Assembly: GCF_017569925.1 (NCBI RefSeq)
Contig: NZ_CP050854.1
Span: 3,844,001-3,908,000 of the forward strand
DNA: 64,000 bases
Direction: 5' to 3'
DNA from: Brenneria izadpanahii
GTDB lineage: Bacteria > Pseudomonadota > Gammaproteobacteria > Enterobacterales > Enterobacteriaceae
The position numbers and the translations under genes are program-made. Of the stretch, positions 1 through 16,939 are shown one piece after another. Below the pieces are notes generated by a model. That model saw only the letters and a list, made by a program, of their open reading frames with translations, ran no database searches and was not told the DNA's origin. Numbering within the stretch: the stretch's first letter is position 1; the number at the start of each line of letters is the position of its first letter.

Positions 1-1706
1 AACAGCGGCCACAGGCTCTTCACGCCGCCCAACGGATCCACCACGCCCTGATACAACAGATAGCCCCACAACCCCACGCACCCGGCGGTACCGATAATCC
101 CGGCGACCAGCGAATCGGTTTTCTTCAGGAACGGCACGAAGTTACCCAGCAGATCCTGCAGCATAAAGCGGCCGGAACGCGTACCCGCATCCAGCGCGGT
201 CAGAATAAACAGCGCTTCAAACAGAATACCGAAGTGATACCAGAAGCCCATGTTGGCGCCCGGAATAATCTGATGGAATACGTGCGCAATCCCTACCGCC
301 AGCGTCGGCGCGCCGCCGGCGCGATTCAGAATGGAAGGTTCGCCGATATCTTTCGCCGTTTGCATAATCAGCTCTGGCGAAATGACGAATCCCCACGAAC
401 TGACGGTGGCCGCCGCATGAGCGGAAACTTCCTGCAACTGCGCCAGAATCGCCGGCGCATCGGCCGTTCCCAACTGATGCAGGTTAGGCATGGTGATCCC
501 TAACGCCGCCGGCGGGGTATTCATCGCAAAATACAGACCCGGTTCAATAATGGATGCCGCAACCAGCGCCATCACCGCGACGAAAGACTCCATCAGCATC
601 GCGCCGTAACCGATGAAACGGGCGTCGTTTTCGCTAGCCAGCAGTTTCGGCGTCGTGCCGGAGGCAATCAGCGCATGGAAACCGGATACCGCGCCGCAGG
701 CGATGGTGATAAACAGGAAGGGGAACAGCGTGCCTTTCCAGACAGGCCCGGTGCCGTCGACAAACTGCGTAACCGCCGGCATTTTCAGATCCGGATTCAA
801 AATCACGATCCCGATCGCCAGACCGACAATTACCCCGATTTTCAGGAAAGTCGCCAAATAGTCGCGCGGGGCCAGGATCAGCCATACCGGCAACAGCGCG
901 GAGACAAACGCATAACCAATCAGCGTGAAGGTGATGGTGGTATCTTTAAAGGTTAACGCCGGCCCCCAGTACGGGTCGTGCGCGATAACGCCGCCGAACC
1001 AAATCGCCAGCACCAGCAGCACAATACCGATAACCGAAACTTCGCCCACGCGTCCGGGGCGAATAAAGCGCATGTAGACGCCCATAAACAGCGCGATCGG
1101 CACCGTTGAACAGACGGTAAATACGCCCCACGGGCTTTCCGCCAAGGCTTTCACCACGATCAGCGCCAACACCGCCAGGATGATGATCATAATTAAGAAG
1201 CAGCCGAACAGCGCGATCGTTCCCGGCACCGGTCCCAGCTCTTTCTTGACGATTTCACCCAGCGAGGCGCCGTTGCGGCGCGTAGAGAGGAACAGCACCA
1301 TAAAGTCTTGTACCGCGCCGGCCAGCACCACCCCGGCCAACAGCCACAGAGTGCCCGGCAGGTAGCCGATTTGTGCGGCCAGCACCGGTCCGACCAGCGG
1401 CCCCGCACCAGCGATGGCGGCGAAATGGTGGCCGAAAAGCACGTTGCGATTGGTTGGAACATAGTTCAACCCATCATTATTCACCACGGCCGGCGTCGCC
1501 CTATTCGGGTCCAGCTTCATAACCTTCTGAGCGATATACAGGCTGTAGTATCGATAAGCCACCAGGTATACGGCGACAGAGGCGACAATAATCCATAAGG
1601 CGCTGACATGCTCGCCGCGGCGTAGTGCGACCACGCCCAGACAAGCAGCCCCGATGATCCCCAGGATCATCCAGGGGATGTGTTTAAGAATGGTACTGCT
1701 CTTCAT
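1..1706 (-). CDS. btsT: BtsT-type pyruvate/H+ symporter, CstA family (3' end cut by window edge)
   Basis: The minus strand is open from an ATG at 1706 to the window edge, giving about 568 residues of a protein that is about 716 long in E. coli. The N-terminus (MKSSTILKHIPWMILGIIGA) and many inner stretches such as NDGLNYVPTNRNVLFGHHFA match E. coli BtsT (YjiY) more closely than its paralogue CstA. The family is polytopic inner-membrane carriers; BtsT takes up pyruvate by proton symport and is induced by the BtsS/BtsR two-component system. An AAGGA Shine-Dalgarno lies just upstream of the start. The C-terminal quarter and whatever follows lie outside the window. The choice of BtsT over CstA rests on remembered sequences, so it is strong but not searched. 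Confidence 0.88.
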   Translation of the reverse strand, partial: MKSSTILKHIPWMILGIIGAACLGVVALRRGEHVSALWIIVASVAVYLVAYRYYSLYIAQKVMKLDPNRATPAVVNNDGLNYVPTNRNVLFGHHFAAIAGAGPLVGPVLAAQIGYLPGTLWLLAGVVLAGAVQDFMVLFLSTRRNGASLGEIVKKELGPVPGTIALFGCFLIMIIILAVLALIVVKALAESPWGVFTVCSTVPIALFMGVYMRFIRPGRVGEVSVIGIVLLVLAIWFGGVIAHDPYWGPALTFKDTTITFTLIGYAFVSALLPVWLILAPRDYLATFLKIGVIVGLAIGIVILNPDLKMPAVTQFVDGTGPVWKGTLFPFLFITIACGAVSGFHALIASGTTPKLLASENDARFIGYGAMLMESFVAVMALVAASIIEPGLYFAMNTPPAALGITMPNLHQLGTADAPAILAQLQEVSAHAAATVSSWGFVISPELIMQTAKDIGEPSILNRAGGAPTLAVGIAHVFHQIIPGANMGFWYHFGILFEALFILTALDAGTRSGRFMLQDLLGNFVPFLKKTDSLVAGIIGTAGCVGLWGYLLYQGVVDPLGGVKSLWPL

Positions 1707-2096
1707 AAGACATCCTTCATAAAAGTCATAATTATTTGGTTTTGATGTTTATTAAATAAATCAACGCGATGACGATATTCATCACGCAGAGGGGCCGGAT
1801 ATAAAGGGAACGAGGCGGACGCAGCAATGGAGGCGGTACGGAAAACGACAACAGGCCGGCTTGGCGCGCCAGCCGATCCGCCGGATTGAAGACAGGATTA
1901 CGGATAAGTGAAAAAACCAATGAAGTTGTCATCATGTTCCGCCGAAACACTGCTGGTGGCAGAACATTACGTCAGCGCCGACCGACGAACTATCGCTATT
2001 TTGCTAGCCGGTAATATAGCGCGCTAAGCGGTTAGAATCGTCGGGTGAACGGTTGACGGGTGAATGCCGCTTATCGCTCCGTCACGCTAAGCGGCG
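1707..2096. other. Intergenic region upstream of btsT
   Basis: This 390-base stretch separates the btsT start from the end of the LysR gene. It must hold the btsT promoter. The 72-codon minus-strand ORF inside it has no recognisable similarity and I do not call it. Near 1768-1783 there is an imperfect GATGA-N6-TCATC dyad with the TGA-N6-TCA core of a CRP site, too weak to call. The direct repeats at 2025-2053 are listed separately. Confidence 0.6.
2025..2053 (-). promoter_or_regulatory. Candidate BtsR (YehT)-type direct repeat upstream of btsT
   Basis: Read on the minus strand, ACCGTTCA (2053-2046) is followed after exactly 13 bases by ACCGCTTA (2032-2025). The E. coli BtsR site upstream of btsT is described as two direct repeats of ACC[G/A]CT[C/T]A with a 13-base spacer. 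The second copy fits fully and the first has one mismatch. The repeats point toward btsT. The distance to the btsT start codon, about 320 bases, is long and would imply a long leader, which lowers confidence. Confidence 0.45.
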
Positions 2097-3011
2097 TCAA
2101 CGCCGGGAAAAATTAAGCTGCGGCGTCAGAAAGGCTTGACGGAAATATTCGCGGATAGCCTGCATCGCCGGGGTAAACCTGGCGTCTCGATGCCAGGCCA
2201 ACCCGACGCTCATCGGATGAACGGTATCTTTCAAAGAGCGGGTTTCAATACGCCGCCCTTCCAGCGACCACGGCCGATAAACCAGATCGGATAAAATCGC
2301 CACGCCTAACCCATTGGCGACCATACTGCGCACCGCTTCCACCGAGCTGGTGCGCAGCATGATGCGCGGGCGATGTCCGCTCTCATCCCAATAGCGCATG
2401 GCGCTGTGATCCGCTTCATCAACCGTCAGCATAATGAATGGTTCTTTCGCCACATCGGCCAGACTCACTTGCGGCTTATCGCACAGCGGATGACGGCTAG
2501 GCAGCCATAAGCGCCGCTCGGAGTTGAACAACTTTTCCGAGGTGATTTCCGGGTGGGTGAGATTCGCGGTCAACACCAGCGAAATATCAAAAGAGCGGTT
2601 GATCAGCCCCTGCTCAATGTCGCTGCGCTCCCGCTCGTTCAGGTTGATGGTGATATGCGGAAAACCGTAGGCCAGGCGTTGCAGATGAAACGGCAGAAAG
2701 TACCCCATCACGGTGTAGCTGGCCGCCACATTCAGCGCCCCCTGGGTGCGGTTATCCGTCAGCGGCACCATCATCGCGTCATCAACGCTGCGCAGGATGG
2801 AATAGGCGTGATTAAGAAAGTAGCTGCCGTTTTCGGTCAGCGTCATTCCATGAACCGAACGCAGAAACAGCGGTTTCCCCAGCATGCTTTCCAGCTCTTG
2901 AATCGCCGTGGTTACGGCCGACTGTGAAATATTTAAATGAATAGCGGCTTGTGATATTTGCCCCATCTCAGCGGTCGCGACGAAATAACGGATTTGGCGA
3001 AGTGTGATCAT
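2097..3011 (-). CDS. LysR-family transcriptional regulator
   Basis: This 304-residue protein has the standard LysR layout: an N-terminal winged helix-turn-helix over roughly residues 1-60 (FVATAEMGQISQAAIHLNIS, then a recognition helix with QSAVTTAIQELE) and a two-lobed substrate-binding domain to the C-terminus. It is transcribed away from the pxpA-accBC-pxpBC-permease operon with a 127-base shared upstream region, the usual arrangement for a LysR regulator controlling its divergent neighbour. Its inducer is probably a substrate or intermediate of that operon; this is inference from position. I do not recognise it as a named orthologue. Confidence 0.9.
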   Translation of the reverse strand: MITLRQIRYFVATAEMGQISQAAIHLNISQSAVTTAIQELESMLGKPLFLRSVHGMTLTENGSYFLNHAYSILRSVDDAMMVPLTDNRTQGALNVAASYTVMGYFLPFHLQRLAYGFPHITINLNERERSDIEQGLINRSFDISLVLTANLTHPEITSEKLFNSERRLWLPSRHPLCDKPQVSLADVAKEPFIMLTVDEADHSAMRYWDESGHRPRIMLRTSSVEAVRSMVANGLGVAILSDLVYRPWSLEGRRIETRSLKDTVHPMSVGLAWHRDARFTPAMQAIREYFRQAFLTPQLNFSRR

Positions 3012-3072
3012 ATTTTTCTCTTATTGTTTAAGCATTCTGTTTTTCAGATATCAAAGCATCTAAAAATACGTC

Positions 3073-3086
3073 TTTCCGAATGGAAA
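3073..3086. promoter_or_regulatory. Candidate LysR-type operator between the divergent regulator and pxpA
   Basis: The dyad TTTCC-GAAT-GGAAA lies in the 127-base divergent region, 52-65 bases upstream of the pxpA start. It fits the general T-N11-A partly dyadic form of LysR recognition sites and sits near the expected -65 position. Only its position and symmetry support the call. Confidence 0.4.
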
Positions 3087-3138
3087 AAATTCACTCTATA
3101 TTATTTTTAAACAAAGCCATCACAAATAAGAAATAATT

Positions 3139-3924
3139 ATGAAATATGAAATCGACCTGAATTCCGATATGGGTGAAAATTTCGGTCCTTGGACCATCGG
3201 CGATAACGTCGATAAAGAAATTATGCCTTATATAAGTTCCGCGAATATTGCCGCCGGATTTCATGCCGGCGATCCCAATACCATTAACCAGACAATTGAA
3301 TTGGCGAAATATTATGACATTGCTATTGGAGCGCATCCCGGCTTTCGCGATCTGGCGGGTTTTGGCCGGCGAAATATTAATATGCCGCCACAGGAATTAA
3401 CCAATGATATTATCTACCAATTAGGCGCATTGCGCGAATTTGCTACGCTGTATCAATTACCGTTACAACATATAAAACCACACGGCGCACTGTATATGCA
3501 TCTGGCGCGGGATCAGGCCGCGGCGCAATTTTTTGTGGAAACGCTGCACTCGTTGGCGCCCGATTTATTGTTGTTCTGCATGCATAACTCGGCGGTATGG
3601 CAGGCCGCAAAAAATCTACAACACCCTGTTATTTGTGAATTTTATGCCGACAGAGATTATGACCGCAGCGGATCGATCGTGTTTACCCGCCGGGTTGGCC
3701 CGCTCGTTCCTGAGCACGTGGCGCAGAAAGTATTACGCGCCTGCCGGGAAGGAAAGGTCCGCACCATCGAAGGAGACGACATTCCGGTCGTATTTGATTC
3801 GGTCTGTATTCACAGCGATACGCCGGGCGCGCTGGCATTAATAAAAGCCATACGCGAACAGCTTCATGCCGCTGATATTAATGTTAAATCGGCAGCCAGA
3901 ATAATTTCTTATCCAACAAAGTAA
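3139..3924 (+). CDS. pxpA: PxpA-like (LamB/YcsF family) 5-oxoprolinase subunit A
   Basis: This 261-residue protein belongs to the LamB/YcsF family. Visible signature stretches are DLNSDMGE (residues 6-13), FHAGDP (41-46), AHPGFRD (65-71) and KPHGALY (113-119), which supply the acidic and histidine residues of the TIM-barrel-like active site. In E. coli, PxpA works with PxpB and PxpC in ATP-dependent opening of the lactam ring of 5-oxoproline. It is slightly longer than E. coli PxpA (244). It is the first gene of an operon that also encodes a biotin carrier and a biotin carboxylase, so the substrate may not be 5-oxoproline. The family call is firm; the substrate is open. Confidence 0.88.
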
Positions 3925-3945
3925 AAATTTTAAGGGAATCCAGTG

Positions 3946-4194
3946 ATGAAAGAATATGAAGTACGTTCCCCTTTACCCGGTGTTTTTTATCGTCGTCCCG
4001 CGCCGGACGCCGCCGTTTTTATTGAAGAAAAAGATGTTGTTAATGAAGACACCGTCATTGGTTTAATTGAGGTTATGAAACAATTCAGCGAAGTTTATGC
4101 AGAACAAGCTGGACAATTAATCTCGTTTAATATCAATAACGGCGATGCTGTCGAACCAGGGCAGGTAATAGCCATCATAAAAACGAATAGATAA
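3946..4194 (+). CDS. Biotin carboxyl carrier protein (short, single-domain)
   Basis: The 82-residue product is a bare biotinyl/lipoyl attachment domain with the modification motif EVMKQF and its lysine at residue 45, where most carriers have EAMKM. AccB of fatty acid synthesis has a long N-terminal extension and a protruding thumb; both are missing here, so this resembles the carrier domain of catabolic carboxylases. I chose ATG 3946 over the in-frame GTG three bases earlier because AAGGGA (3932-3937) is well spaced to it. It lies between pxpA and the biotin carboxylase gene, which must act on it. Confidence 0.87.
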   Translation: MKEYEVRSPLPGVFYRRPAPDAAVFIEEKDVVNEDTVIGLIEVMKQFSEVYAEQAGQLISFNINNGDAVEPGQVIAIIKTNR

Positions 4195-4217
4195 AGACAG
4201 CAATATAGGAGGCGGAG

Positions 4218-5606
4218 ATGGAAACACCAATAAAAAAACTACTTATCGCCAATCGGGGCGAAATAGCCGTCAGAATTATCCACGCGGCCAAAAGCCTGGG
4301 CATCCCCACGGTGGCGGCATGCAGTGACGCGGACGCCGATTCTCTGCCGGCCCGTCTTGCCGATGAAGTCTATATTCTTGGCCCGGCGCGCGCCGATCAA
4401 AGCTATCTGAACGTCGAGGCGCTGCTTCAAGGCGCCCGTCGCAGCGGCACCGACGCCATTCATCCGGGGTATGGTTTCCTATCTGAAAACGCCGACTTTG
4501 CTCAAGCGGTGGAACAAGCCGGATTGCGGTTTATCGGCCCTACCCCGCAAACCATCCGCATGATGGGCGATAAAGCCGTCGCCCGGCGCACCGCGCGGGA
4601 GGCCGGCGTTCCCGTGGTGCCCGGTTCCACCGCCGCATTGGGCGACATTGACGCAGCGCTGCGATGCGCCGAAGAGATTGGTTATCCGCTGTTGATTAAA
4701 GCGGCGGCCGGCGGCGGGGGCCGCGGTATCCGCGTTGTCGCCGACGCGACAGAACTGGCTCGTGATTTTCCCATCGCCCAGAATGAATCCAACGCCGCAT
4801 TCGGCTGTGGCGATGTCTATCTGGAACGTTTTATCCGGCACGCCCGGCACATTGAAGTGCAAATACTCGGCGACGGAGAGCGGGTCATCCATCTCTACGA
4901 GCGGGAGTGTTCATTGCAACGGCGGCGGCAGAAGATATTTGAAGAAGCCCCGTCGCCGGCGCTTTCCCCGGTTCAGCGCGAAGCCATTTGCCATAGCGCG
5001 CTGCAACTGGCGCAACAGCTGCGTTACCGCGGGGCGGGGACGTTGGAATATCTGTTCGATGAGGATAGCGGTGAATTCTATTTCATTGAAATGAATACCC
5101 GCATTCAGGTGGAACACCCGGTGACGGAGATGGTCACCGGCGTCGATCTGGTGCAATGGATGCTGCGTATCGCGCAGGGAGAAAAACTCAGCCTGCGTCA
5201 GCAAGATATCGCGCTTAACGGCAACGCCTGCGAAATGCGGATCAATGCCGAAGATCCGGATCGCAACTTTTTCCCCTGCCCCGGCGTGGTGGACAAGCTG
5301 CTCTGGCCGCAGGGAGAAGGCATCCGTATTGATAGCCATCTATTCAGCGGCTACCGCATTCCGCCCTATTACGATTCCCTGTTGGCGAAACTGGTGGCGC
5401 ATGGCCCCGATCGTCGGCAAATGCTGGCGCGCGCGGAGCTGGCGCTGCGGCAATTACGCCTGACGGGGATCGTCACCACGCAATCTCTCCATCAATGGCT
5501 GATAGCCGATCCGCGCCTGCGCGCCGGGCAATTTGATACCACCGCGCTGGAAGAGTGGCTGAAAGCGCGCGCGCAAGCCAAGACGCCGATTTCCCGGGAG
5601 GCCTGA
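4218..5606 (+). CDS. Biotin carboxylase (ATP-grasp) of a catabolic carboxylase
   Basis: This 462-residue protein is a complete biotin carboxylase subunit. It shows the N-terminal fold start ANRGEIAVR (11-19), HPGYGFLSEN (82-91), the glycine-rich ATP loop KAAAGGGGRGIRV (161-173), and the active-site stretch EMNTRIQVEHPVTE near residue 290. It would carboxylate the biotin of the small carrier encoded just upstream at the expense of ATP and bicarbonate. A strong AGGAGG precedes the start. It is AccC-like, but the neighbours (no accA/accD; PxpB/PxpC-type carboxyltransferase halves instead) argue for a dedicated catabolic role rather than fatty acid synthesis. It ends just before the next start codon. 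Confidence 0.9.
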   Translation: METPIKKLLIANRGEIAVRIIHAAKSLGIPTVAACSDADADSLPARLADEVYILGPARADQSYLNVEALLQGARRSGTDAIHPGYGFLSENADFAQAVEQAGLRFIGPTPQTIRMMGDKAVARRTAREAGVPVVPGSTAALGDIDAALRCAEEIGYPLLIKAAAGGGGRGIRVVADATELARDFPIAQNESNAAFGCGDVYLERFIRHARHIEVQILGDGERVIHLYERECSLQRRRQKIFEEAPSPALSPVQREAICHSALQLAQQLRYRGAGTLEYLFDEDSGEFYFIEMNTRIQVEHPVTEMVTGVDLVQWMLRIAQGEKLSLRQQDIALNGNACEMRINAEDPDRNFFPCPGVVDKLLWPQGEGIRIDSHLFSGYRIPPYYDSLLAKLVAHGPDRRQMLARAELALRQLRLTGIVTTQSLHQWLIADPRLRAGQFDTTALEEWLKARAQAKTPISREA

Positions 5607-5607
5607 T

Positions 5608-6489
5608 ATGGAAAACACCGCAATCCGTTACAGCTTTGGCGGCGATGAACATCTTTTCGCCGAAATTGATGAAGCGATGTCGCTGTCCGCATTCTTTCGC
5701 GGTCTGGCGATCACCCGTACCGTCGAACAGTGGGCGATCCCCGGCATTCTGGATATTTGTCTGGCGAACGCCTCTTTTCAGATTCGCTTCAACCCGGATA
5801 TTGTTGCCCCCCAGGCGCTGCTGGATACCGTCCAAAAGGCGGAAAACCAGGCGCAGACGGTGAACCGGCTTGAGACGCGCATCATTGAAATTCCGGTGCT
5901 ATATAACGATCCCTGGACGCGCGAAACGCTGATGCGCTTTCGCGATCGCCATCAGGATCCCAGCGTAACCGATCTGGAGTACGCCGCCGCCATCAACGGT
6001 TATCAAGATATCGACGCCTTTATCGACGCCCACAGCGGTACGCCGTGGTTTGTGTCGATGGTCGGATTCGTCGCCGGTTTACCGTTTATGTTCCAGATGG
6101 TCGAGCAGGAAAAACAGCTTCAGGTTCCCAAATATCTGCGTCCCCGTACCGATACGCCGCGCCTGTCGCTGGGGCACGGCGGATGTTTCGGCTGTATTTA
6201 TTCGGTACGGGGCGCCGGCGGTTATCAGCTATTCGGCGTCACCCCCGCCCCCATCTATGACCCGCAGCAAAATCTGGACTATTTCCGCGAATCGCTGGTG
6301 TTTTTCCGCGCCGGGGACATCGTGCAGTTCAAGCCTATCGACCGGCAACGCTATGACGAGGCGATACAGGCGGTTGAGGCCGGAACCTTTAACCTGCGCA
6401 TCCGGCCCGTAACCTTCGAGCTGGATAAATTTGCCGCCGATCCCGCTGGCTATAAACACTATCTCCAGGAGGTGCTGTATGCAGATTAA
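5608..6489 (+). CDS. pxpB: PxpB/KipI-like (allophanate hydrolase subunit 1 family) protein
   Basis: This 293-residue protein carries the AHS1/carboxyltransferase domain found in PxpB, KipI and the C-terminal part of urea carboxylase; recognisable stretches are FVAGLPFMF and LGHGGCFGCIYSV. It is about 75 residues longer than E. coli PxpB (218). The extra length lies in an insertion with QEKQLQVPKYLRPRTDTPR and a longer C-terminal tail, so it is not a simple PxpB orthologue. Its start follows the biotin carboxylase stop by one base and its end overlaps pxpC by 11 bases, so the genes are translated together. With PxpC it should form the carboxyltransferase-like partner of the biotin enzyme. Confidence 0.82.
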   Translation: MENTAIRYSFGGDEHLFAEIDEAMSLSAFFRGLAITRTVEQWAIPGILDICLANASFQIRFNPDIVAPQALLDTVQKAENQAQTVNRLETRIIEIPVLYNDPWTRETLMRFRDRHQDPSVTDLEYAAAINGYQDIDAFIDAHSGTPWFVSMVGFVAGLPFMFQMVEQEKQLQVPKYLRPRTDTPRLSLGHGGCFGCIYSVRGAGGYQLFGVTPAPIYDPQQNLDYFRESLVFFRAGDIVQFKPIDRQRYDEAIQAVEAGTFNLRIRPVTFELDKFAADPAGYKHYLQEVLYAD

Positions 6490-7456
6490 TGTCCTCAAAC
6501 CCGGACTGGCGACCTCTGTGCAGGATACGGGGCGTGAAGGCTATTACCATCTCGGCATCCCGCCCTCCGGCGCGCTGGATCAGTATTCCCTGCGCATGGC
6601 GAACCTGCTGGTGGGAAATCCTGAATCGGCCGCGGCGCTTGAAATTACGTTGCTGGGGCCGGAACTGGAGTTTACCGGCGCAGGGCTGGCGGCCGTGTGC
6701 GGAGCGAGTATGAAACCGCAATTGGACGGTGTGGAAATGCCTATGCATACCGCCTTTAGCGTCAAGGCCGGACAGGTTCTGCGCTTTGGCTACGCCGCCG
6801 CGGGTTGCCGCAGCTATCTGGCCGTCGCCGGCGGCATTGACGTTCCCGTCGCGCTGGGCAGCCGTTCGACTTATACATTGGGCGCGCTGGGCGGTCATCT
6901 GGGACGGCGTCTGGCGGCGAACGATACGCTTCCCGTCGGCGCGCCGGCGACAAAAGCCAAACCGGGAACCACCGTGCCAGAAGATTATCTGCCGGCGTTC
7001 AGCAAGGATGTCTCGCTGCGCATGGTGCCGGGGCTGTATATCCATCGCCTCACCCCGGAAGCGACGACACGATTTTTTGCTGATACCTGGTCGGTGGGGA
7101 CGGAAGCGGACCGTATCGGCTATCGGCTGAAAGGCGGCAGCCCGCTGGCCTTCCAACCGCGCACGCCGCCGTTTGGCGCGGGCTCCGATCCCTCCAATAT
7201 CGTCGATGCCTGTTATCCGATTGGTTCGGTGCAGGTGCCCGGCGGATTGGAGCCGATAGTTCTACTGCGTGATGCGGTATCCGGCGGCGGTTATATGACG
7301 CTGGGAACGGTGATCGGCGCCGATCTGGATATCATCGGGCAGTTACAGCCCAATTATCGCGTGCGTTTTGTTCCGATCTCGCTAGAAGAGGCACTGGAGG
7401 CGCGACGGCAATATCGTCAGCGTCTGGATCGGCTTGAACATCTATTTGTGAACTAG
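6479..7456 (+). CDS. pxpC: PxpC/KipA-like (AHS2, biotin-dependent carboxyltransferase family) protein
   Basis: The 325-residue product matches the AHS2 family (PxpC, KipA, urea carboxylase carboxyltransferase half): LKPGLATSVQDTGREGY at the N-terminus, GIPPSGALDQYSLRMANLLV, and AGCRSYLAVAGGIDVP in the middle. I chose ATG 6479 over an in-frame upstream start because AGGAGG lies about eight bases before it and it begins with the family's normal N-terminus. PxpB and PxpC pair in E. coli 5-oxoprolinase. The stop codon lies inside a perfect 24-base tandem duplication (7442-7489). Confidence 0.87.
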   Translation: MQINVLKPGLATSVQDTGREGYYHLGIPPSGALDQYSLRMANLLVGNPESAAALEITLLGPELEFTGAGLAAVCGASMKPQLDGVEMPMHTAFSVKAGQVLRFGYAAAGCRSYLAVAGGIDVPVALGSRSTYTLGALGGHLGRRLAANDTLPVGAPATKAKPGTTVPEDYLPAFSKDVSLRMVPGLYIHRLTPEATTRFFADTWSVGTEADRIGYRLKGGSPLAFQPRTPPFGAGSDPSNIVDACYPIGSVQVPGGLEPIVLLRDAVSGGGYMTLGTVIGADLDIIGQLQPNYRVRFVPISLEEALEARRQYRQRLDRLEHLFVN

Positions 7457-7490
7457 ACCTACACACTATTTGTGAACTAGACCTACACAC
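7442..7490 (+). repeat. Perfect 24-base tandem duplication over the pxpC stop codon
   Basis: Bases 7442-7465 and 7466-7489 are identical, and one further base also matches. The unit begins CTATTTGTGAACTAGACC and contains the last codons and TAG of pxpC, so the second copy repeats the gene's tail in the intergenic space. The 3' copy is untranslated. This is a recent-looking duplication with no divergence between copies. Confidence 0.95.
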
Positions 7491-7619
7491 GCTGGACGTC
7501 TTTCCCATTGGTTTTGGCATGCGCCGAAACCAGGGGTTTGCTCGCTCCGAATACCGACGATCCCAGTCAGGCTTCCCTTGTCGTCCGGCAAGGCGCGGCC
7601 TGATTTCTGGAGGTGTACA

Positions 7620-8945
7620 ATGGCTGATTTATCTCAAGTTGAAGGTACGCATAACGCCACATCCGCTGAAACGGTCACTGATACGGAGCGGATGGGGAAA
7701 CTGTCCCTGACAATGGCCTGGTGGGCCGTATGCAGCGCCATATTTTATATCGTGGTCGGCGCGTCGCTGGCGCAGAGCTATGGCGCCAAGAACGCCATTA
7801 TCGGTATGGTGCTGTCGGTGATCAGTTATGGTCTGGTGAATGCGGCGATTAGCCGTTTCGCCATCCGCAGCGGTTTATCGGTTGCGCTGTTTTCCAATCT
7901 GCTGTTCGGACGCCTCGGCTCGACGCTGGCTACGCTGATCTTCTTTTCGACCGCCATCTACTACGCGGTATTCGAAGGCGCGGTGATCGCCTATGCCATC
8001 AATCATCTCTTCCCTCAACTGCCCTACTACTGGGCTGCGCTGATCGTGGTGTTATACAGCGTGCCGCTGATTTTCGGCAGCGTACAGCACTGGCTGGATA
8101 AGTTTAACGGCATTTTACTACCCTTCTATCTGATCGGCCTGCTGCTCACGGTATTGGTCGCCATTAACCACTATGGCTATCAGCCGCAATGGCTGGATTT
8201 CGGACCGGCGTCGCCGCCGGCTTACGGTTGGTGGAACTGCTTCACTTACTATATGGGGGTGTGGATCCTGATGATGTATACCTTCGATTATGCCCGCTTC
8301 GGTAAACAGAAAGACAGCGACTATCATGCGAAATTTAACTTCGGCATGCCGTTCTACCTAATCACATTCCTGCTCAACGGCGTGGCGGGTATTTATCTGG
8401 TCAGCAGCTTTGAGCAGCAAGGCGGCGTGAGCGAGGTGGCGGTGGTAGTGGCGATATTGAATTTGCTGGGGCTATGGGGATTGCTGTTTGTGTGGGTTAC
8501 CCAGACGCGGATTAACACCGCCAATTATTATCTGGCGACGGTGAATATGCAGGTATTTTTCGACCGATTGTTGCGTATCCGCTGCCGTAAGATCGTCTGG
8601 GCCTGCATTGTCGGCGCGGTGGTGTATGTGTTGATGCTGGCGGATATTTTCGCCTACATTCTGCAGGCATTGGCCTATCAGGGAGTATTTGTCGTATCGT
8701 GGGTCGGTGTGGCGCTGGGACATATTTTTTCCGCCGAGCGGACGTCGCTTCCGCATAGCGAACGGACATTCAGCGTGCCTGGACTTAGCGCCTGGTTTTG
8801 CAGCGTGGCGGTAGGCATCGCGCTGATGCACGGCGGCGCCGTGCTGCAAACATTTTCCGCGCCCGTCACCTTCGCTATCGCCCTGTTGCTATACAGCTTC
8901 TGGCCGCGTCAGAAAGACATGACGGAAATTAGCGGCATACGGTAA
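7620..8945 (+). CDS. NCS1-family (purine/cytosine-type) permease
   Basis: The 441-residue product is a polytopic membrane protein with about twelve hydrophobic segments. It resembles the nucleobase:cation symporter-1 family: MAWWAVCSAIFYIVVGASLA near the start and TQTRINTANYYLATVNMQ in the region corresponding to TM8 of CodB-type carriers. I chose ATG 7620, preceded by GGAGGTG, over an earlier in-frame start. It lies 163 bases downstream of pxpC on the same strand and is probably its transporter. Known NCS1 substrates include cytosine, purines, allantoin and hydantoins, so the imported compound is probably a small nitrogen heterocycle; the exact one is unknown. Confidence 0.82.
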   Translation: MADLSQVEGTHNATSAETVTDTERMGKLSLTMAWWAVCSAIFYIVVGASLAQSYGAKNAIIGMVLSVISYGLVNAAISRFAIRSGLSVALFSNLLFGRLGSTLATLIFFSTAIYYAVFEGAVIAYAINHLFPQLPYYWAALIVVLYSVPLIFGSVQHWLDKFNGILLPFYLIGLLLTVLVAINHYGYQPQWLDFGPASPPAYGWWNCFTYYMGVWILMMYTFDYARFGKQKDSDYHAKFNFGMPFYLITFLLNGVAGIYLVSSFEQQGGVSEVAVVVAILNLLGLWGLLFVWVTQTRINTANYYLATVNMQVFFDRLLRIRCRKIVWACIVGAVVYVLMLADIFAYILQALAYQGVFVVSWVGVALGHIFSAERTSLPHSERTFSVPGLSAWFCSVAVGIALMHGGAVLQTFSAPVTFAIALLLYSFWPRQKDMTEISGIR

Positions 8946-9014
8946 CGCTAAGGGATAGTCCCGACTTGCCGCGGACTGCGCCAACCAACACGGCTGCGGA
9001 CAGCGGAATCTACG

Positions 9015-9057
9015 CCTCTGCGCCCGCGGCTCGTTTTTAACGCCGCGGGTGCAGGGG
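9015..9057. terminator. Long GC-rich hairpin between convergent genes
   Basis: The stem runs 9015-9030 against 9042-9057, 16 pairs including three G-T wobbles, with core CCCGCGGC/GCCGCGGG and an 11-base loop containing TTTTT. It lies between the permease gene (plus) and the choice-of-anchor I gene (minus), which face each other. No T-tract follows on either strand, so it is not a textbook intrinsic terminator, but a transcript-end hairpin is the simplest reading. Confidence 0.5.
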
Positions 9058-9077
9058 AAGCGGCAGAGTTGACCGCA

Positions 9078-11009
9078 TCAATAAGTCAGTTTCAGGCGAT
9101 ACACCGCCGTTGTGCCGCTGACCTCATGCCCCACCAGCAGCAATGGCTCTCCATTGGGCGACTGTTCGGCCGGCACGAACGCCAAACCTTCCGGCCCCAA
9201 GTCGCCCACGGCCGCGCCCTGCGCCTTCCAATCCAGCGATTTCAGTTTCTTCGTGGTCCAGTCGGTGCGGGTATTGATGTAATCCTCAAGCACGGGCGAC
9301 TGGGGATGAGTCACGTCGTAGACCAACACGCCGCCGAAACGCTCCAAACCGACAAAAGCATAGGTCTTGCCGCCGATGCCGCCGAGAATCACGCCCTCCG
9401 GCTCCGGCCCTTTATCATCGCTGCGGTTGTCCAGACTGGCGCCTTCCTCATGATTGGAGTTAAAGAATTCTTTGCATGGCACGCTGTTGCCGCCAGAACT
9501 GAGCGTACACGCCTTGCCGCTGCGCGTGTTGATCTGGTTGGCGAAGAATTTTTCGAAATCGGCCCCTGAATCCCAAACCAAAATACCGTTAGCGTCCCGA
9601 ATCGACACCGAACGTCCGCCATAGGTGTACAGCGCGTCATACATCAGGCGATCGCCGTGCGCATCCTGCTCCCCGCGCGTATTGAACAACACCGGTTTCC
9701 CCTGGGCATCCCGGCGGTAGCCTTCCGTCCAGGTGACTTTCAGGCGTCCTAATTTGTCATCCGCGCGGCAATCGCCGGCATCTCCCGCTTTGGCGCCGCA
9801 ATAGCCGAATATTTCCGGGTTAAGCAGCGCGCCGGCGGCAAGCTGACGCAATTGCGGCGGCAGGTCGTCACCCGCGCGGCGGTCGAACCCTTTCTGGTGC
9901 ACCAGATGCTTGACGCGAAACTCCTCCACGAATCCCTTGCCGGCGTCGCCCGCCCAGTAGGCATCGTTATCTTCGCCCCACGCCCGCGCATCGCCTTCAT
10001 TGGCGGTCACCAAGTAGGTGTTGCCGTCCGACGGGGCGGTATAGGCGGCAATGCTATCCGGCAGATATAAACCGCGCAGGCCGGGCCAGGCGCGGATATC
10101 CACGCCGACCAGCTTGGCATCGCCATCGCCGTCGGAAACATCGATTTCATTGCCGGCCTCGCCATGATCCTTGAATCCCAGCGGCAGAATATCGATGACG
10201 CTGGCCTTGGCGACATCGATTTTCGCCAAGGCGTTGTTTTCCTGCAACGTCGCCCAGGCGGTTTTCCCATCGGCCGCCACCGCGATATATTCCGGCTCCA
10301 GATCCTGCGCTACGCTGGCATTGGGACCGTAAATACGTACGCCTTTGCCGCGCAGTTCGTCGGCGCGGCCGTTGAACGCGCCGAAATCCGCCGTGCGCAC
10401 TTCCGGCCTGGCGGGATTAGCGACATTGATGATGCTGATGGAGCCCTCGGGATCCTTGCCGTAATCATCGCTTGGCTCGCCTTCGTTGGCGACCAGCAGC
10501 GTTTTGCCATCCGGCGTAAACACCAGGTTATCCGGCAGCGCGCCGACCTCCACATGGCTGATTAATTGCAGATCGGACGCATTGTAAAGCGCCACCCGTC
10601 CCGGTTCGGTCTTGTCGCCGGCTTCAATAGCCAGCGCCACCAGCCCGTTTCGCACGGCCACGCTGTTGACCTCGGAACCCGGCAGAATATTTTCGGTTTT
10701 CAGCGTTTGCAGCAGTTTGGGGTGGGCCGGATCGGACAGGTCGAGAACGTCCAGCGCTCCCGCCAGCGCGTTGACGACGAAAGCGCGTTTGGAGCCGGCA
10801 TCGTAATTGACTATTTCAGCCGCGCTCTTTCCGAAGACGCCCGCCGCGTAGCCGCCGATTTTTTCCAGCGCGATACCGGTCGGCGTCCTTTCTGATGCGG
10901 GCTTACCGACGGCGGTTTCAGCATGGACGGAGGTCGCCATAACGGCGGACAGGATGATGCCTAGCGCCGATAATCTGCGGCGGCGCCCTGGTGGATGTAA
11001 GACATTCAT
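9078..11009 (-). CDS. Secreted choice-of-anchor I / phytase- and alkaline-phosphatase-like beta-propeller protein
   Basis: This 643-residue protein starts with a Sec signal peptide (positive RRRR stretch, hydrophobic core, likely cleavage after SVHA). The mature part has repeated propeller-like blades of the form DVLDLSDPAHPKLLQTLKT and later EGVILGGIGGKTYAFVGLER, as in choice-of-anchor I proteins and the unusual cyanobacterial alkaline phosphatase family. It is acidic-residue rich, consistent with metal binding. It should be periplasmic or surface exposed. A Pho-box-like sequence lies about 80-95 bases upstream, and ushA is the next gene upstream on the same strand. This supports a role in phosphate scavenging from organic phosphates, but activity is not proven by sequence. 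Confidence 0.78.
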   Translation of the reverse strand: MNVLHPPGRRRRLSALGIILSAVMATSVHAETAVGKPASERTPTGIALEKIGGYAAGVFGKSAAEIVNYDAGSKRAFVVNALAGALDVLDLSDPAHPKLLQTLKTENILPGSEVNSVAVRNGLVALAIEAGDKTEPGRVALYNASDLQLISHVEVGALPDNLVFTPDGKTLLVANEGEPSDDYGKDPEGSISIINVANPARPEVRTADFGAFNGRADELRGKGVRIYGPNASVAQDLEPEYIAVAADGKTAWATLQENNALAKIDVAKASVIDILPLGFKDHGEAGNEIDVSDGDGDAKLVGVDIRAWPGLRGLYLPDSIAAYTAPSDGNTYLVTANEGDARAWGEDNDAYWAGDAGKGFVEEFRVKHLVHQKGFDRRAGDDLPPQLRQLAAGALLNPEIFGYCGAKAGDAGDCRADDKLGRLKVTWTEGYRRDAQGKPVLFNTRGEQDAHGDRLMYDALYTYGGRSVSIRDANGILVWDSGADFEKFFANQINTRSGKACTLSSGGNSVPCKEFFNSNHEEGASLDNRSDDKGPEPEGVILGGIGGKTYAFVGLERFGGVLVYDVTHPQSPVLEDYINTRTDWTTKKLKSLDWKAQGAAVGDLGPEGLAFVPAEQSPNGEPLLLVGHEVSGTTAVYRLKLTY

Positions 11010-11086
11010 GAGTGCGTTTCCCTAGAGTGTATTAATTTATTTAAGCTATCGACTATCTGAACGAGACTCGTTTTTAACCGGGAAAG

Positions 11087-11104
11087 GCTACAGTTTTATG
11101 ACAT
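11087..11104 (-). promoter_or_regulatory. Candidate PhoB box upstream of the choice-of-anchor I gene
   Basis: On the minus strand this reads ATGTCATAAAACTGTAGC. Against the consensus CTGTCATA-N-A-N-CTGTCAY it matches the full TGTCATA half and CTGT of the second half. It points toward the gene at 9078-11009 and ends 78 bases before its start codon; the T-rich GGTTAAAAA region follows at about -10 spacing. It is a single box. Confidence 0.55.
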
Positions 11105-11228
11105 GCGCAAGCCGCGCAGTATATCGGCCAATGCAGCGATAACGACGGTAACGCGAGGATAACCATATCGGATTGATGGGTACGGCTTCGGCAACGTTTT
11201 GCCGCGGGGGAGCGGGAAGTAAAGAAGC

Positions 11229-11265
11229 AGCGGTTTTCATCGGCGAAATGGAGACGAAAACCGCT
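11229..11265 (-). terminator. Putative ushA terminator hairpin
   Basis: A perfect 10-base stem, AGCGGTTTTC pairing with GAAAACCGCT, begins 12 bases past the ushA stop codon. The loop is 17 bases. On the minus strand the sequence after the stem is only moderately T-rich (GCTTCTTTAC), so efficiency is uncertain. Confidence 0.55.
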
Positions 11266-11276
11266 TTATTCGTCAG

Positions 11277-12929
11277 TTACTTATAAACAATTTCACCATG
11301 AGGCTGATATGCGGCCGCATCCAGCGGCGAGTTTTTCTCGATGTACTGTTTCAATACATCCGCATCGATAAATCCGGTGTTCACATAGCCAGGGAGATTA
11401 TCAATGCGCGGATACGCATCCCCTCCCATAGCGTTAAAGTTCAGGGTGGACATCCGGTAGACTTTATCCGCCTGTAACGGCTCGCCCTTGATTTTAACAT
11501 CCCGGACGCCTTTACCGTCCGCCGTCAGGCTGACGTTAAGGAACTGCGCATAGGCGCCGGAATCCACGACTTTATTCGCCACCACGGCCAGATATTTCTC
11601 AACGTCGCTGCCTTTCATATCCACATAGACCAGCGTGTTGGCGAAGGGCTGTACTTTCAGCACGTCTTTATAGGTAATATCGCCGGGTTCAATCGAATCA
11701 CGGATCCCCCCGCCGCTCATTACGGCGAAATCGGCATTCGCCCGCTCAAGCTGGGCGGTCAACAATACCCGGGCCAAATTCGTTTGGTGAAAACGGACCT
11801 GGCTGCGATCGCCATCCAGTTTACCGTTGACGCTGCCCACTTTTACGCCAAGCTGTTCTTGCCCTTTTTCCTGGAACGGCGTCAACATTTTCAGCATTGA
11901 CGAATCCTGTTGGATTTCATGGGTATAGAAAACCCGCTCGGTTTTGCCATCCGCCGTTTCGACTTTTTTCTTCAGGTTGACCGGGATCAGTTGATAGTGT
12001 TCCAGTTTCAGCTCGCCGTTACGGAAGGTGAAATCCGCCCGGCCGACATATTTGCCCCATTCGTGAGCCTGAACGATCCAGACGCCGTTCTGACGATCCG
12101 GCGCACAGGGCGTGCCCGGTACATAATCCACCTGTTTTTTATTCTCGCTGGCCATACAGACCGGATCTTGCGAGTGGCCGCCGACAATCATATCCAGATA
12201 GCCGGCGGGTATGCTGCGGGCCATTTCCACGTCGCCCGGCGCATTGGAACCGTGATTGCCGTTGTCATAGTGGCCCATATGCGTCGCGGCAATGATGACA
12301 TCGGGTTTCTCGTTTTGACGTAACTCCTCGACCACCTGCTTCACTTCCACCGCAGGTTTACGGAATTCCATATCGGTAAAATATTCAGGATTGCCTAATT
12401 TGGCCGTATCGTCGGTAGTCAGACCGATAACCGCGATTTTAACCCCTTGCTTGTCGAATAAGGCATACGGTTTGAATAACCGCTGATGGGTGCTTTTTTG
12501 ATAAATATTGGCTGACAGCAGGGGAAAATTCGCCCATTTCTGCTGTTGTCTCAAAACAGAAAGCGGATTATCGAATTCATGGTTACCGAGCGCCATCGCA
12601 TCGTAGCCGACCATACTCATGCCGCGAAAATCGGGTTCGGCGTCCTGCAGGTCTGATTCAGGCACGCCAGTATTAATATCGCCGCCGGAAAGCAACAGTA
12701 CGCTGCCGCCTTTATCGGCGACTTCCTGACGAATCTGATCGACCAGTGTTTTTTGTGCCGCCAATCCGTATTCACCATAATTGTTATGCCAAAAATGCCC
12801 ATGGTGATCGTTGGTATGAAGAATGGTGATGGAATACGTTTTATCTTTTTCCCAAGCCATTGCGCCATACGGCGCCAACACCAGAGATGCCGCCAGCGCG
12901 CATCCCAGTGTTTTTATTGAAAAACGCAT
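11277..12929 (-). CDS. ushA: UshA, periplasmic 5'-nucleotidase / UDP-sugar hydrolase
   Basis: The 550-residue product has the same length as E. coli UshA. It has a signal peptide (cleavage near GAMA-WEKD), the metallophosphoesterase start ILHTNDHHGHF with D41 and H43 as metal ligands, the GNHEFD motif, a central domain with VGGHSQDP, and a C-terminal substrate-binding domain with NFNAMGGDAYP. The cysteine pair of the VCMASEN...GTPCAPD segment, a known disulfide in E. coli, is kept. I chose ATG 12929, with GGAG seven bases upstream, over an ATG 30 bases earlier. It hydrolyses extracellular nucleotides and UDP-sugars to recover nucleosides and phosphate. Confidence 0.96.
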   Translation of the reverse strand: MRFSIKTLGCALAASLVLAPYGAMAWEKDKTYSITILHTNDHHGHFWHNNYGEYGLAAQKTLVDQIRQEVADKGGSVLLLSGGDINTGVPESDLQDAEPDFRGMSMVGYDAMALGNHEFDNPLSVLRQQQKWANFPLLSANIYQKSTHQRLFKPYALFDKQGVKIAVIGLTTDDTAKLGNPEYFTDMEFRKPAVEVKQVVEELRQNEKPDVIIAATHMGHYDNGNHGSNAPGDVEMARSIPAGYLDMIVGGHSQDPVCMASENKKQVDYVPGTPCAPDRQNGVWIVQAHEWGKYVGRADFTFRNGELKLEHYQLIPVNLKKKVETADGKTERVFYTHEIQQDSSMLKMLTPFQEKGQEQLGVKVGSVNGKLDGDRSQVRFHQTNLARVLLTAQLERANADFAVMSGGGIRDSIEPGDITYKDVLKVQPFANTLVYVDMKGSDVEKYLAVVANKVVDSGAYAQFLNVSLTADGKGVRDVKIKGEPLQADKVYRMSTLNFNAMGGDAYPRIDNLPGYVNTGFIDADVLKQYIEKNSPLDAAAYQPHGEIVYK

Positions 12930-13578
12930 TAAAAATCTCCGTGTCTTAAAAATACCCATGTAGAAAAACTTTACCTGAGCAAAGCGGTAAAGCGCAATGA
13001 CGGGCTATGGGCGTAATCGCCGTCATTCCGGCGCTAACGATTCATAATAAACGCAGATGATGAAGAACACATAACGGAGCGTTCTCCGCCTGTCTTTAGG
13101 CTGTAACCAATTTTTTATAATATGAATGGTTCATCCAAATAATCCGTTGTCAGCCCTTTTATTCCCCACTTTCTATGGTTTCCGACTGGCTGATAGCGTT
13201 TTTTTATCGAACGTCCGGATAAAGCGCAAGGCATCCACGGCAATAAACCAGCTTCCCATTGATAATTACGCATGTTTATCAACGCTTATCTGAGGAAACT
13301 GTGTTTAAATCTGTGTTATCATGAGAATAAGCTGATAAGCTAACATTTTTAGCAAAATACCAGTTTTTACCAAGCAACATTTCTCCATATACAATAGAAT
13401 TTATGTGTGCCCAACAGATTTCAACGTGCGGGAAGGCGGCAACAGAAAGAATTCCGATGAGATTACACCAGTAGATGATTCGGGTGAGCAAAAGAAGCCG
13501 ATACTCCTGTGACTTGAAAGATAAAGGGGAATAAGAAGTCCGCTCATTCACGTTTCATACATGGCAAAAGGAGTCGGG
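12930..13578. other. Intergenic region between ushA and ybaL
   Basis: This 649-base gap separates the divergent ushA and ybaL genes; E. coli has the transporter gene fsr here. A 90-codon minus-strand ORF at 13279-13551 has no Shine-Dalgarno or recognisable similarity and I do not call it. The stretch is AT-rich and should hold the ushA and ybaL promoters. A Pho-box-like sequence followed by TATAAT points rightward at 13090-13121 (see findings). Confidence 0.6.
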
Positions 13579-15264
13579 ATGCATGCTGCAACACCTCTAA
13601 TTTCAACGATTGCCGGAGGGCTTGTTCTGGCCTTCCTTCTCGGTATTCTGGCAAACCGCCTGCGTATCTCCCCTCTTGTTGGTTATCTTGTTGCCGGTGT
13701 GCTTGTTGGGCCTTTTACCCCAGGATTCGTCGCTGACACCTCGCTGGCGCCTGAGTTGGCCGAACTCGGCGTCATCTTGTTGATGTTTGGCGTGGGTTTG
13801 CACTTTTCCCTGAAAGATCTTATGGCGGTAAAATCGATCGCCATCCCCGGCGCTATCGCCCAGATCGCGGTGGCGACGCTGCTTGGGATCGGGCTTTCCA
13901 TGCTGCTGGGCTGGAGCCTGCCGAACGGCCTGGTATTCGGTCTCTGTCTTTCAACGGCCAGTACCGTCGTACTCTTGCGCGCGCTGGAAGAACGCCAGCT
14001 TATTGATAGCCAGCGCGGCCAAATCGCCATCGGCTGGCTGATCGTAGAAGATCTGGCGATGGTTCTGACGCTGGTTCTGTTACCCGCCTTCGGCGACATG
14101 ATTAGCTCGGAACATGCCGATACCAATAAGCTGCTGCGCGATCTGGCGTGGACCATCGGTAAAGTCATCGCTTTCATCACGCTGATGATCGTCGTGGGCC
14201 GCCGTCTGGTTCCCTGGGTGCTGGCCAAAAGCGCCAGTACCGGTTCCCGCGAGCTATTTACCCTGGCGGTGCTTGCCATGGCGTTGGGGATCGCCTTTGG
14301 CGCGGTAAAACTGTTCGATGTTTCCTTCGCTCTGGGCGCGTTCTTTGCGGGCGTGGTGCTCAATGAGTCAGAGTTAAGTCAGCGGGCTGCTCACGATACG
14401 CTGCCGCTGCGCGACGCCTTTGCGGTGCTGTTCTTTGTTTCCGTCGGCATGCTGTTCGATCCGATGATTCTAATCAATGACCCGATTGCGGTGATGATTA
14501 CTCTGGCGATCATTGTCTTTGGTAAATCAGCCGCCGCGTTTATGTTGGTCCGGCTCTTTGGCCACTCCAAGCGCACCGCATTAACCATTTCGGCCAGTCT
14601 GGCGCAAATTGGGGAATTCGCCTTTATTCTCGCCGGGCTGGGCATCGCGCTGGGGTTACTGTCCGAAGAAGGGCGCAGCTTGGTATTAGCCGGCGCGATC
14701 CTTTCCATCATGATCAATCCGGTTCTCTTTACCCTGCTTGAACGCTATCTGGCTAAAAATGAAACCATCGAAGAACAGATCGTGGAAGAAGCGATAGAAG
14801 AAGAGAAACAGATCCCCGTGGATTTGTGTAATCACGCGCTGTTAGTCGGCTACGGGCGGGTCGGCAGCCTGATCGGCGCCAAACTTCACCAGGCGGGTAT
14901 TCCGGTGGTGGTAATAGAAAACTCTCGCGCGCGCGTCGACGCACTGCGTGAGCAAGGCATCAAGGCGGTGTTGGGTAATGCCGCCAAGCCGGAAATTATG
15001 GAAATCGCCCGGCTGGATTGCGCACGCTGGCTATTGCTGACGATTCCAAACGGCTATGAAGCAGGAGAAATCGTCGCGGCGGCGCGTGAAAAGCGAAGTG
15101 ATTTGGAAATCATTGCTCGCGCTCATTATGATGATGAAGTCAGCTACATTACCGAGCACGGCGCCGATCAGGTGGTAATGGGAGAGCGGGAAATCGCCAA
15201 CAGCATGATTACGCTACTCAAACTCGATGAAGCGGCGCCGGCGCCGCAGGAATGCCCCATCTGA
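13579..15264 (+). CDS. ybaL: YbaL, CPA2-family cation/proton antiporter with TrkA-N domain
   Basis: The 561-residue product closely follows E. coli YbaL. The first about 390 residues form a Na+/H+-exchanger-type membrane domain (LGVILLMFGVGLHFSLKDLM, LFDVSFALGAFFAG). After a charged linker (EEAIEEEKQIPVD) comes a Rossmann TrkA-N domain with the nucleotide loop GYGRVGSLIG. Proteins of this KefB/KefC-like family export K+ in exchange for protons under nucleotide or thiol control. I chose ATG 13579 because AAAGGAG lies five bases upstream and the product then starts like E. coli YbaL; an ATG 18 bases earlier is less likely. Confidence 0.93.
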   Translation: MHAATPLISTIAGGLVLAFLLGILANRLRISPLVGYLVAGVLVGPFTPGFVADTSLAPELAELGVILLMFGVGLHFSLKDLMAVKSIAIPGAIAQIAVATLLGIGLSMLLGWSLPNGLVFGLCLSTASTVVLLRALEERQLIDSQRGQIAIGWLIVEDLAMVLTLVLLPAFGDMISSEHADTNKLLRDLAWTIGKVIAFITLMIVVGRRLVPWVLAKSASTGSRELFTLAVLAMALGIAFGAVKLFDVSFALGAFFAGVVLNESELSQRAAHDTLPLRDAFAVLFFVSVGMLFDPMILINDPIAVMITLAIIVFGKSAAAFMLVRLFGHSKRTALTISASLAQIGEFAFILAGLGIALGLLSEEGRSLVLAGAILSIMINPVLFTLLERYLAKNETIEEQIVEEAIEEEKQIPVDLCNHALLVGYGRVGSLIGAKLHQAGIPVVVIENSRARVDALREQGIKAVLGNAAKPEIMEIARLDCARWLLLTIPNGYEAGEIVAAAREKRSDLEIIARAHYDDEVSYITEHGADQVVMGEREIANSMITLLKLDEAAPAPQECPI

Positions 15265-15271
15265 TGTCGGA

Positions 15272-15294
15272 CGGGCGGGAAGGATCCCCGCCCG
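15272..15294 (+). terminator. Putative ybaL terminator hairpin
   Basis: CGGGCGGG pairs with CCCGCCCG over eight bases with a seven-base loop, beginning seven bases after the ybaL stop. No T-tract follows (CCTATATATCC), so this could be a rho-assisted end. Confidence 0.5.
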
Positions 15295-15297
15295 CCT

Positions 15298-15421: not shown

Positions 15422-15423
15422 CA

Positions 15424-16425: not shown

Positions 16426-16442
16426 TGCAGTTGCTCCTGGCG

Positions 16443-16937: not shown

Positions 16938-16939
16938 AG

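Follow-up and report, generated by a model that had tools for sequence, protein, structure and literature searches.

A cluster of seven genes at positions 2097 to 8945 of a 64,000-nucleotide window (the whole stretch of DNA analysed) from Brenneria izadpanahii probably encodes a split, biotin-dependent carboxylase of the urea-carboxylase kind, together with a hydrolase that would open the ring of a small lactam-like substrate. The gene order and directions, a divergent LysR gene followed by pxpA, biotin carrier, biotin carboxylase (BC), AHS1, AHS2 and permease genes in one direction, were confirmed as given in the initial annotation of this DNA; the domains named there were confirmed with Pfam and NCBIfam, that of the permease through homologs only. 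The interpretation offered there holds in part: a split biotin enzyme with a PxpA hydrolase is supported, but obligatory co-location of the biotin pair (carrier and BC) is not. The joining of a split urea-carboxylase-type enzyme to PxpA is what is new here. In databases, genes of this kind go under the names of acetyl-CoA carboxylase, allophanate hydrolase or 5-oxoprolinase. The operon contains the parts of such an enzyme, with an intact biotin-accepting lysine, intact BC residues and carboxyltransferase residues of urea-carboxylase type, and its family is genetically linked to biotin supply. The role of the cluster is probably to open small cyclic amides for food.

Relatives were gathered as 115 loci, 70 with BC and 45 without (44 of a first set of 97, plus L126); the 18 loci beyond the first set came from 19 matches in a second class of the phylum, presumably the Alphaproteobacteria, one of which was already in the set. 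To these were added 21 annotated plasmid regions, hand-picked from 90 matching records. For urea carboxylase and for PxpB, 20 control regions each were hand-picked from a phylum-wide sample.

The two halves of the carboxyltransferase, AHS1 (subdomains C/D, 293 amino acids (aa), CT_C_D PF02682; 5608 to 6489, plus strand) and AHS2 (subdomains A/B, 325 aa, CT_A_B PF02626; 6479 to 7456, plus strand), are, as judged from residues and tree, of the urea-carboxylase type and not of the PxpBC type. AHS1 Lys175 (codon 6130 to 6132, plus strand) aligns with Lys1605 of Kluyveromyces lactis urea amidolyase, the proposed general base (PMC5770610). All 69 relatives with BC, all 45 without it and all 20 urea carboxylases have Lys here, whereas all 21 PxpB have Arg. 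The AHS2 segment Pro238-Ser239-Asn240..Asp243 (codons 7190 to 7207, plus strand) is common to urea carboxylase and different in PxpC. In the tree, 22 PxpBC rows fall on one side (Shimodaira-Hasegawa-like approximate likelihood ratio test (SH-aLRT) 99), and urea carboxylase together with the operon family on the other. Both proteins stay below the PxpB and PxpC equivalog cut-offs (71.6 versus 145.55 and 220.8 versus 500, respectively).

With urea carboxylase (TIGR02712; K. lactis, PDB 3va7/5i8i) the operon shares the carboxyltransferase fold, the Lys1605 equivalent, the AHS2 Pro-Ser-Asn..Asp segment, BC and carrier. However, its enzyme is divided among four polypeptides, where urea carboxylase is a single chain of about 1200 aa, its partner is PxpA and not an amidase, and many residues conserved in the 20 urea carboxylases are replaced here by another conserved residue (AHS1 154, 158, 182 and 203; AHS2 209, 220 and 267). 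The TIGR02712 cut-off of 1303.85 is not reached by the separate open reading frames (ORFs; BC 525.5, AHS2 264.2 and AHS1 99.9 bits). Residue signatures and tree support the earlier proposal of a urea-carboxylase-like enzyme made as separate subunits. Two other sets with split AHS1/AHS2, PxpA, carrier and BC, L116 (9741 to 13263) and L191 (Thermomicrobium roseum plasmid, 8652 to 12382), branch on the urea-carboxylase stem. From this position they may represent transitional forms on the way to fused urea carboxylase; a tree constraint uniting all split sets was rejected weakly (p 0.035).

The biotin pair keeps its key residues where it is present. The biotin carboxyl carrier protein (BCCP; 3943 to 4194, plus strand; Biotin_lipoyl PF00364; NF005457/PRK07051 115.9 bits, cut-off 87) has 83 aa if it starts at GTG 3943 and 82 aa if it starts at ATG 3946. 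Conservation among carriers points to Lys46, in the motif EVMKQ (codon 4078 to 4080, plus strand), as the biotin-accepting residue, and this Lys is present in 70/70 carriers of genome loci and 19/19 plasmid carriers. BC (462 aa, PRK12833 type; 4218 to 5606, plus strand; Biotin_carb_N/C, CPSase_L_D2; NF009471/PRK12833 825.7, cut-off 686) was compared with AccC at 13 positions that we take to be catalytic, E. coli numbering being applied to the genome's own AccC-like protein. Eleven agree in 68/68 and position 159 in 67/68, while position 236, His in AccC, is Arg in 68/68 operon-type BC (68 of the 70 BC were counted, two partial ones being excluded).

Moreover, 17/70 loci with BC have bioB or BioY no more than 10 kb from AHS1, against 0/45 without BC, although the latter are not 45 independent cases because they are close kin. 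The neighbors are bioBFHCD at eight loci named Pseudomonas and BioY at nine others. In 17 genomes, hand-chosen partly to avoid repeats of the same genus, 7 of 26 BioY genes fall within 10 kb, against 0.11 expected by random placing (P ~3e-11, to be taken as a guide only, related species not being independent). The operon-adjacent BioY is the sole BioY found in genomes G461, G575 and G510. In Acidiphilium, bioB stands directly behind AHS2; in Thermomicrobium, BioY stands behind PxpA; and in Rhizobium CIAT894, genes for succinate-semialdehyde dehydrogenase (SSADH), carbonic anhydrase, bioB and bioF lie downstream of the operon. Carbonic anhydrase adjoins the operon in this one case out of 115 loci and 21 plasmid regions compared. 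On residue signatures, tree and linkage to biotin genes, the biotin dependence proposed earlier is most likely.

We infer the following course of events. The permease would import a small cyclic amide, and BC, using ATP and bicarbonate, would load CO2 onto the biotin of the small carrier. The AHS1/AHS2 heterodimer would transfer this CO2 to the amide nitrogen, with AHS1 Lys175 as general base. The N-carboxylated amide would be a better leaving group, the ring would be hydrolysed by PxpA, and the resulting carbamate would shed CO2 spontaneously. The net reaction would be an ATP-driven lactam hydrolysis in which bicarbonate is catalytic, the same job as that of PxpABC and HyuAB/CapAB done by other means. 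Nitrogen is the acceptor in the urea carboxylase reaction. Urea carboxylated by this enzyme is then cleaved by a second one (PMC5770610). Caprolactam hydrolysis is described as endergonic, CapAB needs ATP and bicarbonate, and carboxylation of the lactam is one of three mechanisms proposed for it (PMC8453981). For a biotin-based form of such a reaction, the operon encodes the parts that would be required. The likeness to HyuAB, OplAH and CapAB would lie in the net job; however, the domains are unrelated, Pfam finding neither Hydantoinase_A nor Hydantoinase_B in the operon's seven proteins, and biotin is absent from the mechanisms described for those hydrolases.

The genes found beside relatives belong to lactam, hydantoin, N-heterocycle or gamma-aminobutyrate (GABA) enzyme families, which supports the initial annotation's idea of an imported nitrogen compound. 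HyuA/HyuB adjoin 7/70 loci with BC and 0/45 without, and HyuAB are also found beside the operon in Methylobacterium and Shinella plasmid regions. A molybdenum hydroxylase large subunit is encoded beside 6/70 loci with BC and 0/45 without; subunits of this enzyme also occur in Diaphorobacter, Rubrobacter and Thermomicrobium plasmid regions. Genes for GABA breakdown, gabT and/or SSADH, are present in 4/21 plasmid regions: both directly downstream on the same strand in Agrobacterium T29, both on the divergent side in Ruegeria TM1040, gabT in Agrobacterium rubi and SSADH in Rhizobium CIAT894. These neighbors fit a route from a cyclic amide, sometimes via hydroxylation beside the ring nitrogen, to an omega-amino acid and the tricarboxylic acid cycle. 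The lactam corresponding to GABA is 2-pyrrolidone. Because GABA genes adjoin a few relatives, conversion of 2-pyrrolidone to GABA is our leading guess for the substrate, a tentative one; 5-oxoproline comes next with a smaller chance, followed, as guesses, by other lactams or hydantoin-like imides. Among the classes named earlier, the GABA genes thus favor a lactam over a pyrimidine derivative. On the conjugative A. rubi plasmid pW2_73_1 (L194), the operon adjoins F420 biosynthesis genes, an LLM-class oxidoreductase gene and gabT, which suggests that an N-heterocycle is reduced there before ring opening.

Several observations weigh against a biotin-dependent, lactam-opening enzyme. Among the first 97 loci, 53 have BC (52 with the carrier, and L108, which lies at a contig end) and 44 have neither BC nor BCCP while keeping LysR, PxpA, AHS1 and AHS2. 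This is not a rate among bacteria, since 80 of the 97 loci are from among the nearest relatives listed, mostly Pseudomonas. Operon-type BC and carrier genes were absent genome-wide in 14/14 pair-less genomes searched: the best BC there reached at most 474 bits (50 to 52% identity, AccC-like) versus 673 to 856 in six operon-BC genomes, and the best carrier at most 47.7 versus at least 80.7 bits. On the 4716-base contig of L126, PxpA-BCCP-AHS1-AHS2 has a carrier with no BC in between, from true loss or assembly error; Paenarthrobacter plasmid pYJN5-2 (L188) has neither BC nor carrier within the stretch read; and in the haloarchaeal stretch L201, BC is present and no carrier was found. In the Mycobacterium smegmatis long-chain acyl-CoA carboxylase entry with MSMEG_0435-0436 (PDB 9yx5), an AHS1/AHS2 pair occurs with a BC-BCCP subunit (AccA3), which is a likeness to the operon, but the residue that corresponds to Lys175 is Arg there. 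Lys175 alone can therefore not sort biotin users from non-users. As for the substrate, GABA genes adjoin only 3/70 genome loci with BC (L049, L056 and L124), a weak link; a placing control with 36 SSADH genes in the same 17 genomes gave 2 near the operon, in 2 of the 17 genomes, versus 0.15 expected (P ~0.01), also weak; and within positions 1 to 20000 of the window no HyuAB, molybdenum hydroxylase or GABA genes were found, the absence of the last being the adverse point. Importers vary among relatives (NCS1-like, sugar-type ATP-binding cassette (ABC) with a TorT-like binding protein, branched-chain type ABC), as do the neighbors, and substrates may therefore differ between lineages. Finally, in a chosen list of 29 genomes with the family, and leaving urea carboxylase aside, 12 have a PxpB-like match above 190 bits, while a second AHS1 is unclear in 2 and missing in 15; in these 15, the operon family could therefore be the 5-oxoprolinase.

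The pair-less loci raise the possibility of a biotin-independent lactamase, in which AHS1/AHS2 and PxpA work with ATP as in PxpABC and the biotin pair is a droppable accessory. We consider this fairly improbable. In its favor, besides the absence of the pair at 44/97 loci, the best tree (96 rows, L090 being excluded for its short AHS2) has 5 label changes, 2 of them forced by well-supported branches, with the pair in all deep branches; and with the consensus threshold set to 70%, loci with and without BC are told apart by a single AHS2 column (96, Lys/Arg) and by none of AHS1. Of the 44 pair-less loci, 42 are named Pseudomonas, and the remaining two, L101 and L102, nest among those. L088, on a Pseudomonas mandelii 6A1 contig, carries the biotin pair inside a pair-less clade, by regain or recombination. 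However, residues of urea-carboxylase type replace those of PxpBC type throughout and are unchanged in pair-less loci, the biotin Lys and BC residues are intact where the pair is present, and the association with biotin supply genes goes far beyond chance. In addition, a housekeeping BC and BCCP could act in trans, as an AHS pair on an acyl-CoA carboxylase has been deposited (9yx5, known from its title and chain list; no paper describing it was found). Other carboxylases share AccA3 as a subunit (PMC11001197). In pair-less loci, the pair may have become dispensable, or its role may have passed to another BC acting in trans; we favor the second, because the urea-carboxylase-type residues are untouched and the title of 9yx5 describes an AHS1/AHS2 pair bound to the long-chain acyl-CoA carboxylase. 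Location of the biotin pair with the other genes does not hold as a rule, given the 44/97 loci and 14/14 genomes above. The initial annotation had named 5-oxoproline hydrolysis unaffected by deletion of the biotin genes as an argument against itself: loss of the pair in nature goes some way in that direction, while the unchanged urea-carboxylase-type residues do not.

Is the operon a biotin-dependent 5-oxoprolinase? This would keep the carboxylase mechanism and set 5-oxoproline as substrate, overlapping with the reading that we prefer, and we regard it as unlikely, if less so than a biotin-free enzyme. PxpABC is the 5-oxoprolinase of E. coli and B. subtilis. A pxpTABC system has the same function in Corynebacterium glutamicum (PMC13274462). 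Like PxpABC, the operon encodes PxpA with an AHS1/AHS2 pair, and its PxpA passes the cut-offs of two PxpA subfamily models (NF003814 293.9 bits, cut-off 226); moreover, the 15 genomes mentioned above hold no other clear AHS1. Unlike PxpABC, it encodes a biotin pair, and its AHS1 and AHS2 lie outside the PxpBC side of the tree, below the PxpB/PxpC cut-offs and with Lys instead of Arg at 175; the window's own genome is among the 12 with a strong PxpB-like match, and the genes for GABA breakdown and molybdenum hydroxylase next to relatives suggest a different substrate. More doubtful still is a split carboxylase whose substrate would be acyclic and of urea type (urea itself, guanidine or another ureide) and in which the PxpA-like protein would replace allophanate hydrolase. 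The carboxyltransferase is nearest to urea carboxylase, and the separate-subunit sets L116 and L191 stand on the stem of that enzyme; but residues of urea carboxylase differ here (AHS1 154 Asp to Phe and 182 Trp to Asp; AHS2 209 Asn to Glu), none of the seven proteins has an amidase domain, and PxpA and HyuAB neighbors suit cyclic amides. That the biotin pair is a spare piece of acetyl-CoA carboxylase placed here by chance seems very improbable. Public annotation of the plasmid relatives names nearly all these genes so, but the pair falls below the equivalog cut-offs (AccB TIGR00531 67.5 versus 115.2, AccC TIGR00514 587 versus 626.5), the genome holds a separate BC, and the pair stays together with AHS1/AHS2 in proteobacteria, haloarchaea, Rubrobacter and Thermomicrobium. 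A role of the pair in fatty acid synthesis only, named earlier as a refutation, is likewise unlikely, because of that separate BC, which is of AccC length, and of the same cut-offs.

The Pseudomonas aeruginosa genes PA0492-PA0496 are a published counterpart: the same gene set occurs in strain PA7 (L087), a locus that we take to correspond to that of PAO1. PA0493-PA0496 are described as an operon in which the precise function of PA0493 and PA0494 is called unknown, and the genes were taken as a hint about fatty acid synthesis (PMC6249292); PA0492-PA0496 are also treated in PMC5521831. We found no function for the operon family in the literature searched, and the relevant passages of these two papers give no functional data for the enzyme.

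A more inclusive version of the biotin-dependent carboxylase and hydrolase scheme would be a family of lactamases driven by N-carboxylation, mainly converting 2-pyrrolidone to GABA, in which AccB/AccC serve the pair-less Pseudomonas and from which fused urea carboxylase is derived. We hold this as a long shot. Supply of carboxybiotin by AccB/AccC to AHS1/AHS2 would be physically possible, as 9yx5 suggests, and the origin of the fused enzyme is proposed from the position of two split, PxpA-containing sets on its stem. If the operon does encode a biotin-dependent, lactam-opening enzyme, a widespread family would be a new biotin enzyme that energizes lactams via carboxybiotin and not phosphate, and would link urea carboxylase with 5-oxoprolinase. 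It would also raise the question of whether housekeeping carboxylases lend biotin subunits to other transferases, and offer lactam-opening enzymes that could be used on nylon monomers and lactam pollutants.

The cluster is not a chance assembly, because the order LysR-PxpA-BCCP-BC-AHS1-AHS2 recurs in loci named Brenneria, Prodigiosinella, Pectobacterium, Lonsdalea and many Pseudomonas, as well as in 14/21 plasmid regions; the same parts in other orders are found in haloarchaea, Rubrobacter, Thermomicrobium and A. rubi. A LysR homolog of at least 45% identity is present at 94 of the first 97 loci, including loci without the biotin pair. AHS1 shares 97% identity with a protein of Brenneria goodwinii. 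Presence is patchy, with 6/9 searched genomes of the same genus, 16/398 sampled across the phylum (this genome included) and 19/385 in the second class; the family also occurs in haloarchaea, actinobacteria and Thermomicrobium. The haloarchaeal plasmids L187, L190 and L201 carry a biotin-type set with genes reshuffled in order and strand. In Lonsdalea britannica (L016, about 7501 to 8300), pxpA is in two pieces (153 and 111 aa) with the rest whole, owing to a broken gene or a sequencing error. The Paenarthrobacter plasmid locus L188 has AHS1/AHS2, two PxpA and a permease that shares 45% identity with the one in the window; it also carries genes for a class III aminotransferase, an aldehyde dehydrogenase and glutamine-synthetase-like proteins.

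The B. izadpanahii genome (5.33 Mb in one contig) contains three AHS1 and three PxpA genes, and BC C-domains at two sites, an AccC-like gene and the operon BC (the search covered BC, AHS1 and PxpA). Two further PxpA/AHS1/AHS2 sets are therefore present, and BC adjoins only the operon studied here. One looks like a phr-ybgI-pxpB-pxpC-pxpA arrangement (phr and ybgI named by eye), so that a canonical-looking 5-oxoprolinase set is already in the genome; the other adjoins an apparent amino-acid ABC protein gene, also by eye. The operon PxpA (3139 to 3924, plus strand; 261 aa; LamB_YcsF PF03746, 298 bits) is 35 to 37% identical to the two others.

The LysR-family regulator (2097 to 3011, minus strand; PF00126, PF03466) is separated from pxpA by a divergent intergenic region of 127 nucleotides (nt; 3012 to 3138) that is presumably the control region, in which promoter-like matches were no more numerous than in shuffled sequence. 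AHS2 starts at ATG 6479, overlapping AHS1 by 11 nt. The permease gene (7620 to 8945, plus strand) most likely starts at ATG 7620, preceded by GGAGGTG, as judged by eye. Its product has no Pfam match of its own above cut-off and matches a cytosine-permease model weakly (21.4 bits, cut-off 326), so that the earlier NCS1-type label holds as NCS1-like through homologs only: of three homologs tried, 52 to 53% identical to it, two pass NCS1 PF02133 (cut-off 23.5; L113 33.0, L114 30.7) and L108 (16.8) does not. The gap between AHS2 and the permease gene contains a short direct repeat (7457 to 7490), two copies of ACCTACACAC at a spacing of 24 nt. Adjoining the operon on the opposite strand (9078 to 12959) are ORFs of 643 and 560 aa, the latter resembling a UshA-kind 5'-nucleotidase by eye, no search having been made.

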